In this document: positions 14,293 through 20,979 of the stretch, piece by piece
Layout of the letters: every line of letters starts with the position of its first letter
Numbering within the stretch: the first letter of the stretch is position 1
From: a halophilic archaeon SHRA6
Lineage (GTDB): Archaea; Halobacteriota; Halobacteria; Halobacteriales; Haloferacaceae
Reading direction: 5' to 3'
NCBI GenBank assembly: GCA_005239175.1
Contig: ML241294.1
Span: forward strand, 310,001-374,000
DNA length: 64,000 nucleotides
Position numbers and translations under genes: made by a program
Notes under the pieces: model-generated
The model's database searches: none
Told to the model about the DNA's origin: nothing
The model's input: the letters and a program-made list of their open reading frames with translations, nothing else

Positions 14293-14838
14293 GTGACTGG
14301 GGCAACTGAACCAACCGAATTAGAGGAACAGATATCGAGCGTGACGTCCGCGGTCGTTGTCGTCTGTGGCCCGCCGGGTGTCGGAAAGTCAACTGTTTCG
14401 AGGCGGCTCGCCGATCGGCTCGGTTCAGTGGTCATTCGGACGGACGTACTCAGGAAGGAACTGTTCGCGGAGCCCGACTACTCCGACGCAGAGACCGAAC
14501 AAACGTACGAGGCGCTGTTTGAACAGATCGGTTCGATCGTCGAAGACGGACAATCGGCCGTTGTCGACGGCACGTTCCGAACCCGATCGATACGTCAACG
14601 TGCACGGCAGCAGGCAGCAGCACACGAGGTCCCGTTTTTGCTGGTGAGCGTCACGTGTGATGAGTCAGTGGTCGAAGCACGGATCGAACAGCGAGAGGGC
14701 GTGAGCGATGCCGATTTCGCGATTCACAAACAGATCAAATCGGAGTTTGAATCGATCGAAATACCACACATCACGATTGACAATTCCGGAGGGCTCAACG
14801 CGTTATCCCGCCAACTTGACGAGCACTTTTCGCTATGA
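14293..14838 (+). CDS. AAA-type P-loop ATP-binding protein (putative kinase)
   Basis: Small ATPase or kinase of 181 aa. Walker A is GPPGVGKST around residues 26-34, followed by VIRTDVLRKELF and VDGTFRTRSIRQRA, as in the AAA_33 group of zeta-toxin/polynucleotide-kinase-like proteins. The start is GTG. Its 3' end overlaps the convergent MMPL gene by 6 bp. No phosphate acceptor can be inferred. Similar haloarchaeal proteins are annotated only as ATP-binding or adenylylsulfate-kinase-like. Confidence 0.75.
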   Translation: MTGATEPTELEEQISSVTSAVVVVCGPPGVGKSTVSRRLADRLGSVVIRTDVLRKELFAEPDYSDAETEQTYEALFEQIGSIVEDGQSAVVDGTFRTRSIRQRARQQAAAHEVPFLLVSVTCDESVVEARIEQREGVSDADFAIHKQIKSEFESIEIPHITIDNSGGLNALSRQLDEHFSL

Positions 14839-17397
14839 CCGAATCGCAGGCGTTCGGGCTGCGATCGTGTCCACAACAGCTCGGATTGTGGGGTCCACCC
14901 GGTGCCAGATAACGATCGTCGACGGAAGGACCAGTATCGACGCGAGGTACGCGTACAACACTCCGAGCGCGAGCAACAGTCCAAAGTCCTGAATTAGCGG
15001 AATCAGCGCGAGATAAAGCGTCCCGAGCCCCGTAACGGTCGTGATCATGCTCCCCGTGAGCGCACCCCCGGTCCCACGAGCAGTGACGAGCAACGCCGCG
15101 TTGACGTCTCGGCCGGAATCGAACTCATCGACGAACCGGTGCATGAAGTGAACAGTGTAGTCAACCCCGAGCCCGATGGAGACCCCTAGAATGGGCGCAT
15201 TGATCGGCGTCAGCGAGATACCGAGATACCGCATCGACCCCGCCAACACACCGACGGTGATGAAAATCGGGATCAGGTTGATGACGCCGTAAATGGCTCG
15301 GGATTCGAGCCACCAGTACGCGATCATGAGGAACGCGCCAGTGAGGAAAAATGCGACAAAGAGACTCCGGATCGACGATTCGGTTATTTCATCGATCACA
15401 ACCTGATTGACGACGAGGTCACCTGTTGCGACCGCGTCCAACTCCATCGAATTGGCGATCGACTGGGCAGCCGCGGTGATCTCGTCCTGTTCAGCGTCGA
15501 CATTGACGGTGTACTGAATCCGTGTTGCCCGCCGGTCGGCGGTGAGATACGTCGCTGCCTCGTCAGACCGCGGCGAGTCCTGCAACTCCGCGTAAACCTG
15601 ATCGACGTTGCGATCTGGGATGCCGTCTCCAGTCGCGTCTGAGCGCTCAACCAGTCGAGCGAACTCCGGGTCTTCGGCCGCGTGATTGTTCATTACGCCG
15701 ACGATGCTATCGGCGTTCGCGCGCCGATCGCTCGACTCCAGCGCCTCGGGAGTCGATTGAAGAGCTCTGTCAATGTCACGTAACGCCATATCCGACCGGA
15801 CGTCTGGATCGTCGATATACACCGTAACGGAGCCGACAAAGCCCTGCCCAAAGTCGTTCTCTAGGCGATCGAGCACCTGCATAAATGTGTACTCGCTCGG
15901 GGCAAGTGGCCCAGGCAACGCGCCGTATTGTTCAATTCGCTCTTGGTCTGGGAAGAACGCCTCCTGGGAGAATTCAGTGTCGACGCCGGTACCGTACGCG
16001 CCGCCAGCCGCGCCAAGAACCAGCGCTGAGATGAGAATTATCGCCGGCGCGATCGCCGCTGCCTTTGCGCCGATCGGAAGCACTGTTCCGAGAATCGATC
16101 CCTCGCTACCGATCGGACTCGACCCAAACTGTGGAATCCGCGATCCCTCACGAAGCCGGTCGGCAACAATCTTGCCGGCCGGTAAAAAGATCCCAAAGAT
16201 CAGAAACGTAAACAGGATACCGAACGCGGAAACGATACCGAACTCGCGGGTCGACTGCAGAGAACTCGTGAGGTTCGCAGCAAAGCTGAAAACGGTCGTC
16301 AGGGTGACGATCAAAAACGCCGCGGTGAGTTGGGTCGTCGTCAACGACATGGCCTTGTCGATCGACGCTCCGTGACTACGCTCTTCACGGTATCTGTTGA
16401 TGGTGTGAATGCCAAAGTCGATCCCGACCGCCAACAACAGCGGAAACACTGTGACCATCGAATCCGAGAAGGGAATATCGGCATAGCCCATGAAGCCGAA
16501 CGTCCAGACGAGAGTCATAAGCAGCGAAACGATGCCAAGTGCGAGGTCGATCGGATCTCGATAGGCAATGACGAGGAAAAAGAGGATCAAAAATACAGCC
16601 GTCGGAAAGACAATAATGGCGGTGTCGGTCAGAAGATCGAGGATCTCGTCTTCGAGGATCGCATCGGCAAAGACGACCACATTCTCACCAGATTCGAAGC
16701 CTTCGACCTCCTCGACGATCTCGACTGTCTGGAATTGGATCTCGCTAACGTCGCTCGTCCCCGCGCTCGCAGGAACGTCGTAGGAGACAAACACCTGCAT
16801 CACCGACGCGTCAGGGCCAGCAGGATTGAAATCCTCGCTGACTGGACCGAGTGAATCTGTCTCGTCGGCGCGACGGACTGCCGACTCGACCTCCCCCACC
16901 GACGCGCGCGCGATAGCCCGCCGCTGGGCCTCCGCCGTCGTCGCCGTTGGATCGATCTGGCGGGCGATGTTCGAGGCCGGACTGCCCGTCTGTTCGACAC
17001 GGAGGCGTGGTTCCGTTTCAAGCCGGTCTTGGGCGTCAAGGACCCGAAGCAATACCGGCTTTGAAAGCACGTTGCGATCGTCACTAATAAACAACGTCGC
17101 GGTTGACCCGCCAGTATCGCGGCTGTTCGACGCGAACTCTTCTTGCATGTCTTCTAACGCTTGGGACTCCTCAACGTCTTCAGTGAACTGATCGGAGCCG
17201 GCTTGCTGTTCGATGCCGCTGATGCCACCCGCAAAAAGCACCGTTAAGAGAAGAAACGCCGCGAGAATCCGCCATGGTGCGGTCGAAATCGCTCGGTTGA
17301 CCCAGCGGGTAATTGGATCGTCCGCATCCGATTGCGGATCAACGGCTGGCCCTGAAGCGTCGCCGGCAGTGTCATCACGACGATCTGTTGGGGGCAT
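14833..17397 (-). CDS. MMPL/RND family transporter
   Basis: Large membrane exporter of 854 aa. Two repeats each have one leading membrane helix, a large extracellular loop domain, and a bundle of about five further helices. The conserved charged elements appear as GIDFGIHTINRYREE in the first half and GVDYTVHFMHRFVDEF in the second, the pattern of archaeal RND exporters. Its ATG directly follows the TAG of the upstream CARDB-type gene with no spacer, so the two are coupled. With the divergent TetR gene this looks like a regulated efflux or lipid-export unit. The substrate is unknown. Confidence 0.9.
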   Translation of the reverse strand: MPPTDRRDDTAGDASGPAVDPQSDADDPITRWVNRAISTAPWRILAAFLLLTVLFAGGISGIEQQAGSDQFTEDVEESQALEDMQEEFASNSRDTGGSTATLFISDDRNVLSKPVLLRVLDAQDRLETEPRLRVEQTGSPASNIARQIDPTATTAEAQRRAIARASVGEVESAVRRADETDSLGPVSEDFNPAGPDASVMQVFVSYDVPASAGTSDVSEIQFQTVEIVEEVEGFESGENVVVFADAILEDEILDLLTDTAIIVFPTAVFLILFFLVIAYRDPIDLALGIVSLLMTLVWTFGFMGYADIPFSDSMVTVFPLLLAVGIDFGIHTINRYREERSHGASIDKAMSLTTTQLTAAFLIVTLTTVFSFAANLTSSLQSTREFGIVSAFGILFTFLIFGIFLPAGKIVADRLREGSRIPQFGSSPIGSEGSILGTVLPIGAKAAAIAPAIILISALVLGAAGGAYGTGVDTEFSQEAFFPDQERIEQYGALPGPLAPSEYTFMQVLDRLENDFGQGFVGSVTVYIDDPDVRSDMALRDIDRALQSTPEALESSDRRANADSIVGVMNNHAAEDPEFARLVERSDATGDGIPDRNVDQVYAELQDSPRSDEAATYLTADRRATRIQYTVNVDAEQDEITAAAQSIANSMELDAVATGDLVVNQVVIDEITESSIRSLFVAFFLTGAFLMIAYWWLESRAIYGVINLIPIFITVGVLAGSMRYLGISLTPINAPILGVSIGLGVDYTVHFMHRFVDEFDSGRDVNAALLVTARGTGGALTGSMITTVTGLGTLYLALIPLIQDFGLLLALGVLYAYLASILVLPSTIVIWHRVDPTIRAVVDTIAARTPAIRS

Positions 17398-19350
17398 CTA
17401 CGTGGTCCGTTGTCGGTACCGATACCCAGCAAATGCAAGCCCACCGAGAAGTCCGAGCACGAGCAAGACGATCGCTCCCGTGACAATTGGTGATCGGTCA
17501 CCATCATCGGTCGGCTCAGTCACACTCACTGGCTGCTGGTAGGTGTCCGAGAGGACTGACTCGCCGCGTTCGGTCTCGTACTGGAAGTCCATCTCGACAG
17601 GGTATGTTTTCGCCATCGTGTCCTCCTCCGCCGAAATTGAGAAGACAAGTTTGGCTGAGTCACCGGGTTCAAGACGCTTGACAAACGCTTCCTCACTGTC
17701 GACAGAGAGCGGACTGTCGGCGAACACCTTCGCGTTGATATTTTCGAGCGTCTCCGGGCGTTCGTTGGTGATTTCCAAGACGAGCTCAGTGCTCCCGCCG
17801 GCCGCAACACGAGTTTCAGTGCCGTTAACGGAGAACTCTCGGCGTTGTGGATCGATTTCGACGCGGTGTGCGAGCGGCCCAACCTGTGTGGGTTCGGCTC
17901 GATCGTTGTTGTATTCGACAGTGAATCTGACCTGCCGTGGTCCAGCATCGACCGAGCCACCGATGTCTGTTTGATACTCAAACGGAACCGCCTCACCCGG
18001 CTCGACAGGTGGGAGCGCAAAGCGCCGCTCTTCGATCGAAATCGAGTCGCTCGTTGGCTCGATGACGAGCACGCCGTCAGTGACAGTACGTTCGCCGTCG
18101 TTTCTGAGTTCGCCAGCGATCGTACCGCTGTAACCGACAGCGAGCGTGTCGCTGAGGTTTTCGATCCGGAATGATGCAGCATCCGCGATTGAAACCCGAG
18201 AGGCGATCGGATCACTCCGGATCGTCGTGGCACCCCCGTTTGCGTATTCGACCGCAAACCGAGCCTGCTGTGCGCCGCCGTCCGTGTTCGGAGAGACTGT
18301 CGTTTCAAACGAATAGTCCGTGCGTTCACCCGGCTCAAGCGGTGGTAGTGCAAATCGCGGGTCGGTGACCTGGAGGGATTCACCGGTTGATTCAACGATC
18401 AACACACCGTCGGTAACAGTCGAGGTACCGTCGTTACGAACGGTCCCAGAGAGCTCACCACGCTCACCGACCGCGAGCGCCGAATCGTCGGCAATCACCG
18501 AGAACGATGCGGCTGGCTGTGTCATAAACGTGCCGTCAGCGGACGGTGCCTCTCGATCGATCCCATCTTCATCAGTATACTGAACCGACGCTGTGATCGG
18601 AATAGCTCCGTCTTCGGTGCGCTCTGACAGTGTGGTCGAAACGTTGATTCGAGTTGAATCACCGGCGTCTAGATCGCTGATCGACGCGTCAACAGTTCCG
18701 TCGCCAAACGTCAATCCACTGTTGCCGCGGAGCGTCGCTCTGACATCCGTGGCATCAGTCGCGCCAATATTTGTGAGTTCGACGATACTTGTGCCACTCA
18801 TTCCCGGTTGGAGGTCGGTTGTGACGTTGGTGATTTCGAAGCGGGGATCCTCCGTGACGGTGAGTGTCACCGTAACGCGCTGCAACCGAGAGCGATCGTT
18901 CACTCGATTGTTATTTGGGGAGATCGATTGGGTATGTGAGTACCGGACGTTGAGAGAGACCTCGTACGAACCAGGTTCGAGATCCGATGGCGTGCCGACT
19001 CGCAGGTTGGCAGTGGTACTCATTCCGTCAGCGATCGATCCAAGCGGAATCGTCCCACCGCGTATTTCGAACGGCCCAGAATCGCGTACTTCAACGGACA
19101 CGCCGCGGGCAGTGGTGACAGTATCTGTCTGAGTTCCAACATCAACTTGACCGTCGTTTTGTAGTTGGATGCCGACCGTTGTTTCACTGCCAGGAACAAC
19201 TTCGTTGTCAGGTGCGTATGCAGTGAGTTCGGGTTCGCCGCGGGTGTATCCGCCCTGTTGAGCGCTAACAGGGAGAGAGACCGCTGCAAGCACGACAAGG
19301 AGAAACAAGCTGACAGCTACCCATTGGTGACTCGTCAGATTCATTGACAT
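17398..19350 (-). CDS. secreted/surface CARDB (COG1361-type) protein
   Basis: Probable cell-surface partner of the MMPL exporter, 650 aa. It has a signal peptide (VAVSLFLLVVLAAVSLPVSA), then about five repeated beta-sandwich modules with the recurrent pattern 'LEPGE...F...V.Y..' (CARDB/NEW3 type), then one C-terminal membrane helix (IVTGAIVLLVLGLLGGLAFA) and a basic tail RYRQRTT. Modules around residues 280-400 and 400-500 are clearly internal duplicates. The topology is an external domain stack anchored at the C terminus. It begins 173 bp from the divergent tetR gene and abuts the exporter gene downstream. Confidence 0.85.
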   Translation of the reverse strand: MSMNLTSHQWVAVSLFLLVVLAAVSLPVSAQQGGYTRGEPELTAYAPDNEVVPGSETTVGIQLQNDGQVDVGTQTDTVTTARGVSVEVRDSGPFEIRGGTIPLGSIADGMSTTANLRVGTPSDLEPGSYEVSLNVRYSHTQSISPNNNRVNDRSRLQRVTVTLTVTEDPRFEITNVTTDLQPGMSGTSIVELTNIGATDATDVRATLRGNSGLTFGDGTVDASISDLDAGDSTRINVSTTLSERTEDGAIPITASVQYTDEDGIDREAPSADGTFMTQPAASFSVIADDSALAVGERGELSGTVRNDGTSTVTDGVLIVESTGESLQVTDPRFALPPLEPGERTDYSFETTVSPNTDGGAQQARFAVEYANGGATTIRSDPIASRVSIADAASFRIENLSDTLAVGYSGTIAGELRNDGERTVTDGVLVIEPTSDSISIEERRFALPPVEPGEAVPFEYQTDIGGSVDAGPRQVRFTVEYNNDRAEPTQVGPLAHRVEIDPQRREFSVNGTETRVAAGGSTELVLEITNERPETLENINAKVFADSPLSVDSEEAFVKRLEPGDSAKLVFSISAEEDTMAKTYPVEMDFQYETERGESVLSDTYQQPVSVTEPTDDGDRSPIVTGAIVLLVLGLLGGLAFAGYRYRQRTT

Positions 19351-19469
19351 TTACCCACGAACGTCTGAAAATAAACCAAGGGGGCGAGACGCCATGCTCG
19401 TCTCGGTCCAGTACTGTGCGGTACCCAATTCATATGCACAATGGAACAACAGCCACGTACATAGTATTG

Positions 19470-19489
19470 TTGATTGAACGTTCAATCAA
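19470..19489. promoter_or_regulatory. 20-bp perfect palindrome, probable TetR operator
   Basis: TTGATTGAACGTTCAATCAA is its own reverse complement over all 20 bases. It lies between the divergent starts at 19350 and 19524, 35 bp from the tetR ATG. The length and perfect dyad fit TetR-family operators, so it probably controls both directions. Confidence 0.75.
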
Positions 19490-19523
19490 TACGATTTTAT
19501 CACAGTACCCCCACCGACAGACA

Positions 19524-20120
19524 ATGACCCAGCTGTTCGGCGATCCAAGCGATACCCGCGAGGAAATCCTCGCAGCCACATACCGCGCGCTTCAGACGCA
19601 CGGATACGCCGAACTCACGATCGATCGGATCGGTGAAGAGTTCGAAAAGAGCATCTCACTAATATACCATCATTTTGATGATAAAGACGATGTATTGGTT
19701 TCTTGTCTCGAATTTATGCTCGATCAGTACGAACATGGCCACACCGGGGTCTCCGTCGATGAGCCAGACGCAATAGAGGAAATAATCGAATCCGTCCTCG
19801 ATCCAGCGTGTAGCAGCGAGGAACAATCGTTAGTGTCCTCGCTTGTCGAACTTCGCGCGCAGGCAGCACACGATCCAGAGTATCGGGCGCACTTCGATCG
19901 GAGCGATCAGGTATTCCGCGACCGGTTTGCGGCGATTATTCGGGCAGGAATCGACACCGGAGCGTACAACGCATCGTGTGATCCTGACGCTGTAGCGGAC
20001 ACGATTCACACGGCGCTTATTGGCGCGATGGTCCGCCGGGCAACCACCGACAGTACCGAGTGGATCAACGCAGTGGAGACAGAATTACAGGCGTACCTCC
20101 GAGCACAGATATATACCTAA
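19524..20120 (+). CDS. TetR/AcrR family transcriptional regulator
   Basis: 198-aa ligand-responsive repressor. The N-terminal helix-turn-helix is LTIDRIGEEFEKSISLIYHH followed by FDDKDDVL, the TetR_N pattern, with a helical ligand-binding domain after it. ATG 19524 (MTQLFGDP) is preferred to upstream in-frame starts, because the palindromic operator lies at 19470-19489 and TetR homology begins just downstream. It is divergent from the CARDB-MMPL pair and probably represses it. The RNA-ligase-like gene follows after 22 nt, probably co-transcribed. Confidence 0.9.
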   Translation: MTQLFGDPSDTREEILAATYRALQTHGYAELTIDRIGEEFEKSISLIYHHFDDKDDVLVSCLEFMLDQYEHGHTGVSVDEPDAIEEIIESVLDPACSSEEQSLVSSLVELRAQAAHDPEYRAHFDRSDQVFRDRFAAIIRAGIDTGAYNASCDPDAVADTIHTALIGAMVRRATTDSTEWINAVETELQAYLRAQIYT

Positions 20121-20142: not shown

Positions 20143-20979
20143 ATGCACCGATACCCGGAGCGACCGCGTGCAAGCAACGCACCCGACGGGCTGTTCGATC
20201 GCGGCCACCTCTGGTTGTTCGAAGCGATCGACGGTGCACCGCTGCGATTTCAGCTCACCGACACCGGTGCAATCCGCTTTGGGGATGCGACGACAACGTT
20301 TGACCCCGAAGCAGTGCCAATTCCGTATCGCTACGCAGTTCAGGAGATTCGCGGCCAGATTGACCGTGACGCGCTGTTCGAGGCGGTCCCGGCCCTCGAC
20401 GCTGTCACTTTCTTTGGGGTTGCTCCGCAGCGTCGATCAATTCCGTACGAGTTCGATCGGATTCCCGGCTTCTTCGGGAGCGACATCCGAGTTACCGACC
20501 GAGGGTTGTTACCACCAGATATCACAACGAAAATCTACCACGAGCTCGGGCTCACAACGCTCGAGCCGATCGAAAAGGAGGTCAGAGCAGTAGATTTCGA
20601 CCCCGATCGTCACTCAGTTCCCCCCTCAACGTGGTACGACGGTCCTGCCTATGGGACGATCGCACGGAACAAGACTGGTGAGAGTGCGTTCATCCCTGCC
20701 GACGATGCACCAGTTTCTGAAGCCGAGGTCGCACCCGACGACGCTACCGCCACGGCGGAGGCATTTGTCTCGTCGATCGCCGTAGAGACGCGGTGTGAGC
20801 GAGCGACAACCGACCTCAACCGGGCCGGGACGGCGGTGAGCGTTGACTCGCTGTTCGATCGCGTGATCGCCGCGATCGGCAGGGAGTATCCTGCGCAGTT
20901 CGATGACGGCGCGATCGACCAACGCGCGTTCTCGTCCGCGCTACGGAGCGAAATTCACCGCTGGCACACGTCTCAATAA
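20143..20979 (+). CDS. RNA-ligase-family-like protein lacking catalytic residues
   Basis: 278 aa. It resembles haloarchaeal 'RNA ligase family' proteins (nucleotidyltransferase fold), whose motif I contains EKxDG. Here it reads EAIDG at residues 27-31, so the AMP-accepting lysine is Ala28. Motif III reads TFFGVAPQRR where FFGEA is expected, and the motif IV region reads YGTIARNK where EGVVxRN is expected. All three catalytic side chains are therefore replaced while the rest is intact, including a full helical C-terminal domain. It is probably a non-catalytic RNA- or nucleotide-binding relative. The family call is from memory of the family and should be checked. It lies 22 nt after tetR. Confidence 0.65.
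   Translation: MHRYPERPRASNAPDGLFDRGHLWLFEAIDGAPLRFQLTDTGAIRFGDATTTFDPEAVPIPYRYAVQEIRGQIDRDALFEAVPALDAVTFFGVAPQRRSIPYEFDRIPGFFGSDIRVTDRGLLPPDITTKIYHELGLTTLEPIEKEVRAVDFDPDRHSVPPSTWYDGPAYGTIARNKTGESAFIPADDAPVSEAEVAPDDATATAEAFVSSIAVETRCERATTDLNRAGTAVSVDSLFDRVIAAIGREYPAQFDDGAIDQRAFSSALRSEIHRWHTSQ

Follow-up and report, generated by a model that had tools for sequence, protein, structure and literature searches.

The question raised by this locus is what use a haloarchaeon makes of a gene whose product resembles an RNA ligase along its whole length and has lost the residues with which such an enzyme works. The gene lies in a window (the whole stretch of DNA that was analysed, 64,000 nucleotides) from a halophilic archaeon of the Haloferacaceae. 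We consider that it encodes a pseudo-RNA-ligase, with the Rnl2-type fold and no ATP/AMP pocket, which is probably a non-catalytic binder of RNA or RNA ends. As judged from its residues, it is very likely that ligase activity has been lost; RNA binding as the function that was kept is a putative assignment and a matter of judgement, towards which we lean slightly.

The gene, its relatives and its fold

The gene encodes 278 amino acids and a stop codon, and the original prediction, made from the sequence alone, was exact as to its frame, its coordinates, its 278-residue length and the reading of three motifs (EAIDG, FFGVA and YGTIARN). There is one copy in the genome. The closest homologue is the orthologue in Halalkalirubrum salinum (L002/L031), which also has an intact frame, and homologues are found in 98 of the 171 genomes of the family and in 203 of the 394 of the order. 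It is this orthologue, the homologues in the family and an alignment with a profile of viral ligases that exclude a chance frame. When 20143–20979 is read as its reverse complement, stops interrupt the frame shown. The gene and the domain at its 3' end are as follows.

20143–20979, forward strand: pseudo-RNA-ligase gene, recognized from its open frame, its intact orthologue (90–91% identical) and a profile match to viral RNA ligases over its full length
20755–20976, forward strand: C-terminal helical domain, retained, from AlphaFold2 helices at residues 205–277 (pLDDT mostly 70–93) and alignment with the corresponding domain in viral ligases and T4 Rnl2

Taken alone, the protein matches none of the Pfam, NCBIfam and PHROG models, and no match to PF09414 (RNA_ligase) is found in the genome to which the window belongs. 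That model is matched by all 17 intact short homologues tested (best 1.1e-20), compared with only 3 of 14 homologues without the catalytic lysine. A profile of the lysine-less proteins is nevertheless aligned by hhalign over 276 columns with a set of 12 viral RNA ligases, HGTV-1 gp217 among them (E 1.6e-43, probability 100), and EAIDG is thereby paired with EKLDG, FFGVA with FFGEA and AYG with AEG. The viral set aligns in turn with T4 Rnl2 (profile match E 2.3e-7), and HGTV-1 has been described with Rnl2-family ligases (PMC8651126). An AlphaFold2 model of the window protein, built from a shallow alignment of 13 sequences, has a pLDDT of 82.8, and its best PDB matches in Foldseek are all RNA ligases (2vug first, then 8uch, 1xdn, 2hvr and 5d1o; E 1e-8 to 4e-7), with moderate TM-scores of about 0.5. 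The predicted nucleotidyltransferase fold is supported; the fine detail of the model is not. Full-length homology to the Rnl2-type RNA ligases is firm, and the statement that the chain follows the RNA ligase family along its length is borne out by the 276 aligned columns together with the predicted fold.

The dismantled ATP/AMP pocket

In T4 Rnl2, AMP is carried on K35 of motif I; its ribose is touched by E99 (motif III) and R55 (motif Ia), its base lies beside F119 (motif IIIa) and its phosphate is touched by K225 and K227 (motif V) (PMC3149579). On alignment with T4 Rnl2, the window protein is found to have lost the residues of all five of these motifs and of motif IV as well; it has EAIDG, FFGVA and YGTIARN at the places where its intact relatives have EKVDG, FFGEA and AEGVVVRN. 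The altered positions are listed below.

20221–20235, forward strand: remnant of motif I, EAIDG (residues 27–31), catalytic lysine replaced by Ala28; from alignment with intact homologues, viral ligases and T4 Rnl2
20287–20289, forward strand: motif Ia arginine (the R55 position of T4 Rnl2) replaced by Ala49; arginine in 36 of 37 intact homologues, aligned to CAKR of T4 Rnl2
20410–20424, forward strand: remnant of motif III, FFGVA (residues 90–94), glutamate replaced by Val93; glutamate invariant in intact and viral proteins
20434–20436, forward strand: His98 position of the intact ligases, now arginine; histidine in 34 of 37 intact haloarchaeal proteins, in all viral ones and in 0 of 78 of the lysine-less clade
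20479–20481, forward strand: motif IIIa phenylalanine (the adenine-stacking position) replaced by Ser113; phenylalanine in 35 of 37 intact proteins and 5% of the lysine-less clade, aligned to FYVFDI of T4 Rnl2
20650–20670, forward strand: remnant of motif IV, YGTIARN (residues 170–176), glutamate replaced by Tyr170; glutamate invariant in intact and viral proteins
20683–20691, forward strand: remnant of motif V, S-A-F (residues 181–183), arginine and lysine lost; intact proteins have Arg181 (36 of 37) and Lys183 (29 of 37), and the lysine is invariant in viral ones

It had been claimed that the AMP-accepting lysine and two glutamates are lost, and the alignment agrees (A28, V93 and Y170). As a description of the full extent of the loss, however, this triple falls short, because the residues now represented by A49, S113 and S181/F183 have gone too.

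A substitute catalytic lysine was sought in the window protein and in the lysine-less clade, and none was found. The protein has only three lysines (130, 145 and 177); because K177 alone is conserved in the clade, and the intact ligases share it, no shifted nucleophile is apparent. An alignment that placed the catalytic lysine elsewhere was what the original prediction had named as fatal to it, and the search for one gave no candidate. Such a misplacement would make the protein an active ligase, and there is a parallel in DpRNL, which has been modelled with the lysine of motif V substituting for that of motif I (PMC4599027). Here, however, the motifs align unambiguously with EKVDG proteins that are about 40% identical, the lysine of motif V has itself been lost (F183) and the three that are left include only the one conserved residue; we regard an error of alignment as hardly credible.

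Alternatively, a protein that cannot adenylylate itself might still carry out the third step of ligation, sealing RNA that bears a 5'-AMP cap (AppRNA) made by another enzyme. Evidence that the sealing step can survive includes engineered ligases without the lysine, such as Mth K97A (PMC4606414), and motif V mutants of T4 Rnl2 (PMC3149579), and the existence of seven homologues with K28 and without the motif IV glutamate indicates that partial function may exist en route. Nevertheless, the residues of motifs Ia, III, IIIa and IV have gone in addition to the lysine, and in T4 Rnl2 two conservative changes (R55K/K225R) already abolish sealing (PMC3149579). Moreover, no PF09414 or Lig_C ligase that would make AppRNA was found in the window genome; RtcB is present, but its chemistry is different. 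A ligase restricted to the third step is, in our estimation, very improbable.

Of the features by which an Rnl2-type ATP-dependent RNA ligase is recognized, the window protein therefore has the nucleotidyltransferase fold and the C-terminal helical domain; the diagnostic residues are missing from each of motifs I, Ia, III, IIIa, IV and V. Those of a pseudoenzyme, namely homology to an enzyme without its catalytic residues and maintenance by selection (dN/dS 0.20), are both found.

Repeated loss and continued selection

On the evidence of these residues, catalytic loss is not peculiar to the window gene, and most sampled haloarchaeal relatives share it. Counting the homologues with the triple loss had been proposed as a check, and the answer is 85 of 139 aligned haloarchaeal proteins; K28 is absent in 94 and K28, E93 and E170 are all kept in 37, in a sample that is weighted towards good matches and does not amount to a full count. 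K28 without E170 occurs in 7 of the 139 and E170 without K28 in none, from which we infer an order of loss: the pattern suggests that the motif IV glutamate disappears together with the lysine or ahead of it. Intermediate states in which the lysine is kept and the glutamate of motif IV or III has gone (KEA, KVA, KEK and KAE; L111, L108, L115, L097, L098, L134, L074 and L095) are useful for working out this order.

Since all 12 viral outgroup proteins and a longer paralogue are K/E/E, the intact state is taken to be ancestral and the loss derived. On a tree built without the columns of K28, E93 and E170 and rooted with the outgroup, the lysine has been lost at least 11 times, assuming no regain. 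One old loss is placed at the root of the 78-protein clade to which the window protein belongs, with support of 90–92, which is not decisive, and with long branches present; about ten further losses are more recent. The lineage of the window protein is itself a long branch, in which R181 and R264 are also lost. A single loss is rejected (AU test with all lysine-less proteins held together, p 0.00018), and it appears from the sequences that catalytic residues were lost repeatedly and independently in haloarchaea. Descent of the lysine-less form from viruses was also considered and rejected, as a scan of viruses with the lysine-less profile gave no relative. In this family an RNA ligase has turned many times, independently and in nature, into a non-catalytic protein, so that both the order in which residues were lost and the function that was kept can be tested directly. 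In one well-supported recent case, L003/L005 (HEA) and L018 (KEE) belong to one genus and have a common downstream neighbour.

Between the window gene and the H. salinum orthologue there are 67 differences, of which 42 fall at third positions, and dN/dS is 0.20. When the same base changes were placed randomly in 1000 neutral trials, the median dN/dS was 0.80 and the minimum 0.36, and 78% of the trials gained a stop. Other lysine-less pairs give values of 0.14–0.47, as against 0.08–0.22 in intact pairs. The window gene is therefore maintained by purifying selection, with constraint somewhat weaker than in active ligases, as had been expected of the remaining protein. It follows from the persistence of the lysine-less clade across haloarchaeal genera under such selection that the pseudo-RNA-ligase is in use.

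These results bear on the view that the gene is a decaying relic, on its way out after the enzyme became useless and with no present function. Its patchy presence and a selection weaker than that on intact copies are in keeping with this, as is the finding of copies interrupted by stops or frame breaks in G104 and G051. Set against them are a dN/dS below that of any neutral run, most of which acquired stops, and a length difference of four codons from the H. salinum orthologue that preserves the frame. In addition, the lysine-less clade comprises 78 mostly full-length genes over eight family-level groups, and in H. salinum the genes for a DUF1028 protein and a dipeptide ABC transporter are fragmentary and the frame of the pseudo-ligase is intact. 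Decay is an unlikely account of the gene. Truncated copies, or copies with stops or frame breaks, are seen in G104 (L065), G051 (L068) and G264 (L206), and there is outright loss of the gene in places.

Retention was compared between the pocket and the rest of the protein. Of six pocket positions the window protein retains none, and of the 89 positions elsewhere that intact ligases conserve it retains 58; in the 78-protein clade the median retention is 3% at the six and 81% at the 89 (Mann-Whitney p 3e-5). It should be noted that the comparison is circular for three of the six, which define the groups; retention at the remaining three is 27% (49), 0% (98) and 5% (113). The residues retained in lysine-less proteins include G21-H22-L23-W24, E27, G31, R35, Y102, P108, G112, E146, P160, S162, D166-G167, G171 and K177, together with the C-terminal domain.

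Putative function, neighbouring genes and known systems

Without the ATP/AMP pocket, no ligase-AMP would be formed and RNA would almost certainly not be joined. The retained fold, a nucleotidyltransferase domain followed by the C-terminal helical domain, would most likely still bind RNA or RNA ends through that second domain and the remaining basic surface, and the bound ends might be shielded, presented or competed for with no chemistry. Basic residues retained outside the pocket in the window protein are R35, R75, K177, R217 and R247. The retention data do not single out RNA binding, since the conserved basic residues that lie outside the pocket show no higher retention in the clade than other residues do (median 81% for the basic ones and 79% for the others). 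The gene is evidently dispensable, because its presence within the family is patchy, and no neighbour that would point to a process is conserved beyond the genus. Binding of RNA or RNA ends is economical as a proposal, being the function that demands least invention. The non-catalytic role put forward in the original prediction remains the best reading, given the loss of residues and the dN/dS; the specific role is putative, and other homologues share the loss. A broader proposal, that haloarchaea repeatedly turn an Rnl2-type repair ligase into a non-catalytic protein dedicated to binding RNA ends, is rather doubtful; such an order-wide family would guard or mark RNA ends or compete for them, with viral RNA ligases and tRNA-repair enzymes as examples of what it would act against.

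Non-catalytic members of enzyme families often turn into scaffolds, and this protein, too, might serve as a scaffold or a regulatory subunit whose ligand is a protein or a nucleotide and not RNA. E27 and R35, beside the old active site, are kept in nearly all lysine-less proteins, as such a role might lead one to expect. However, a partner conserved in the neighbourhood beyond the genus is lacking, and no new residue pattern suggests a re-made ligand site, the conserved residues specific to lysine-less proteins being only V93, A170 and a few others; we doubt this explanation, and prefer binding of RNA or RNA ends.

A search for a conserved partner gene was likewise negative, neighbours being kept within genera only. 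Immediately ahead of the pseudo-ligase is the following gene.

19344–20120, forward strand: TetR-family regulator gene (open frame, with the true start probably at about 19524; Pfam TetR_N 1.4e-9, TetR_C_6 6.3e-10)

Its stop is 22 nt upstream, in accordance with the distance first given, and the arrangement recurs in H. salinum; the adjacency is limited to the genus Halalkalirubrum and carries little information. Divergent from the TetR gene, at 14833–19350, are genes for an MMPL-family transporter and an NPCBM-associated secreted protein. All three are 89–96% conserved in H. salinum, and the TetR protein may therefore regulate the MMPL and NPCBM genes rather than the pseudo-RNA-ligase. Downstream of the pseudo-ligase, the window has a DUF1028 gene and a dipeptide ABC transporter, of which H. 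salinum has only short fragments (L031:5906-6258); the deletion ends just behind the intact pseudo-ligase. In one genus, gyrA lies 4–18 nt upstream of lysine-less homologues (L004, L006, L008, L009 and L021), and in another gyrB is immediately downstream (L024, L027, L030 and L042). Both could be coincidence, which would be unsurprising given about 30 genus-level placements.

A second, longer haloarchaeal RNA ligase (about 358 residues) has intact motifs EKFDGS, EGVVVR and RVKLV (L205:2738-3814; L206:2980-4101; L200-L211). It occurs in 34 of the 394 genomes and in a few adjoins the intact short ligase: it starts inside the stop of the latter in G378 (an ATGA overlap) and is directly downstream of it in G295 and G264, which suggests that the two intact ligases form a two-ligase operon. 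As a partner of the window protein it was rejected, being absent from the window genome and confined to those 34 genomes.

A search of the open-access literature turned up no description of a pseudo-RNA-ligase family. By their residues, most sampled short haloarchaeal 'RNA ligase family' proteins are not ligases, and this makes both the annotation and inferences drawn from it about archaeal RNA repair and circularisation unsafe.

The nearest known systems are the short haloarchaeal RNA ligases with intact residues, which fall under PF09414 and carry the annotation 'RNA ligase family protein', for example on Haloterrigena plasmids. They share the length, domain layout and end-to-end homology of the window protein at about 40% identity, but keep K28, E93 and E170. 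The viral ligases (HGTV-1 gp217 and IMG/VR proteins of the Rnl2-like PHROG 548) have full-length homology and the two-domain layout in common with it; all keep the lysine, both glutamates and the motif V lysine, which it lacks. T4 Rnl2 matches in fold, and its motifs and C-terminal domain can be aligned, with K35, R55, E99, F119, E204 and K227 corresponding to A, A, V, S, Y and F. Archaeal Rnl3 (Pab1020, TIGR01209, PF18330) has the nucleotidyltransferase fold in common and supplies the best PDB match, 2vug; identity with Rnl3 is excluded, since the window protein has no Pfam match to the Lig_C domain, and a link to Rnl3/HARP (PMC12153264) was discarded, the window genome having no PF18330 match. 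The deviant RNA ligase 2 of Diplonema, DpRNL, has a rewired ATP pocket (PMC4599027) and is similar in that an Rnl2 pocket has been altered, but it retains the lysines of motifs I and V, neither of which is present here. On this comparison the window protein belongs to the Rnl2-like family by descent, but because it fails in the residues that define Rnl2 the annotation 'RNA ligase' should not be applied to it.
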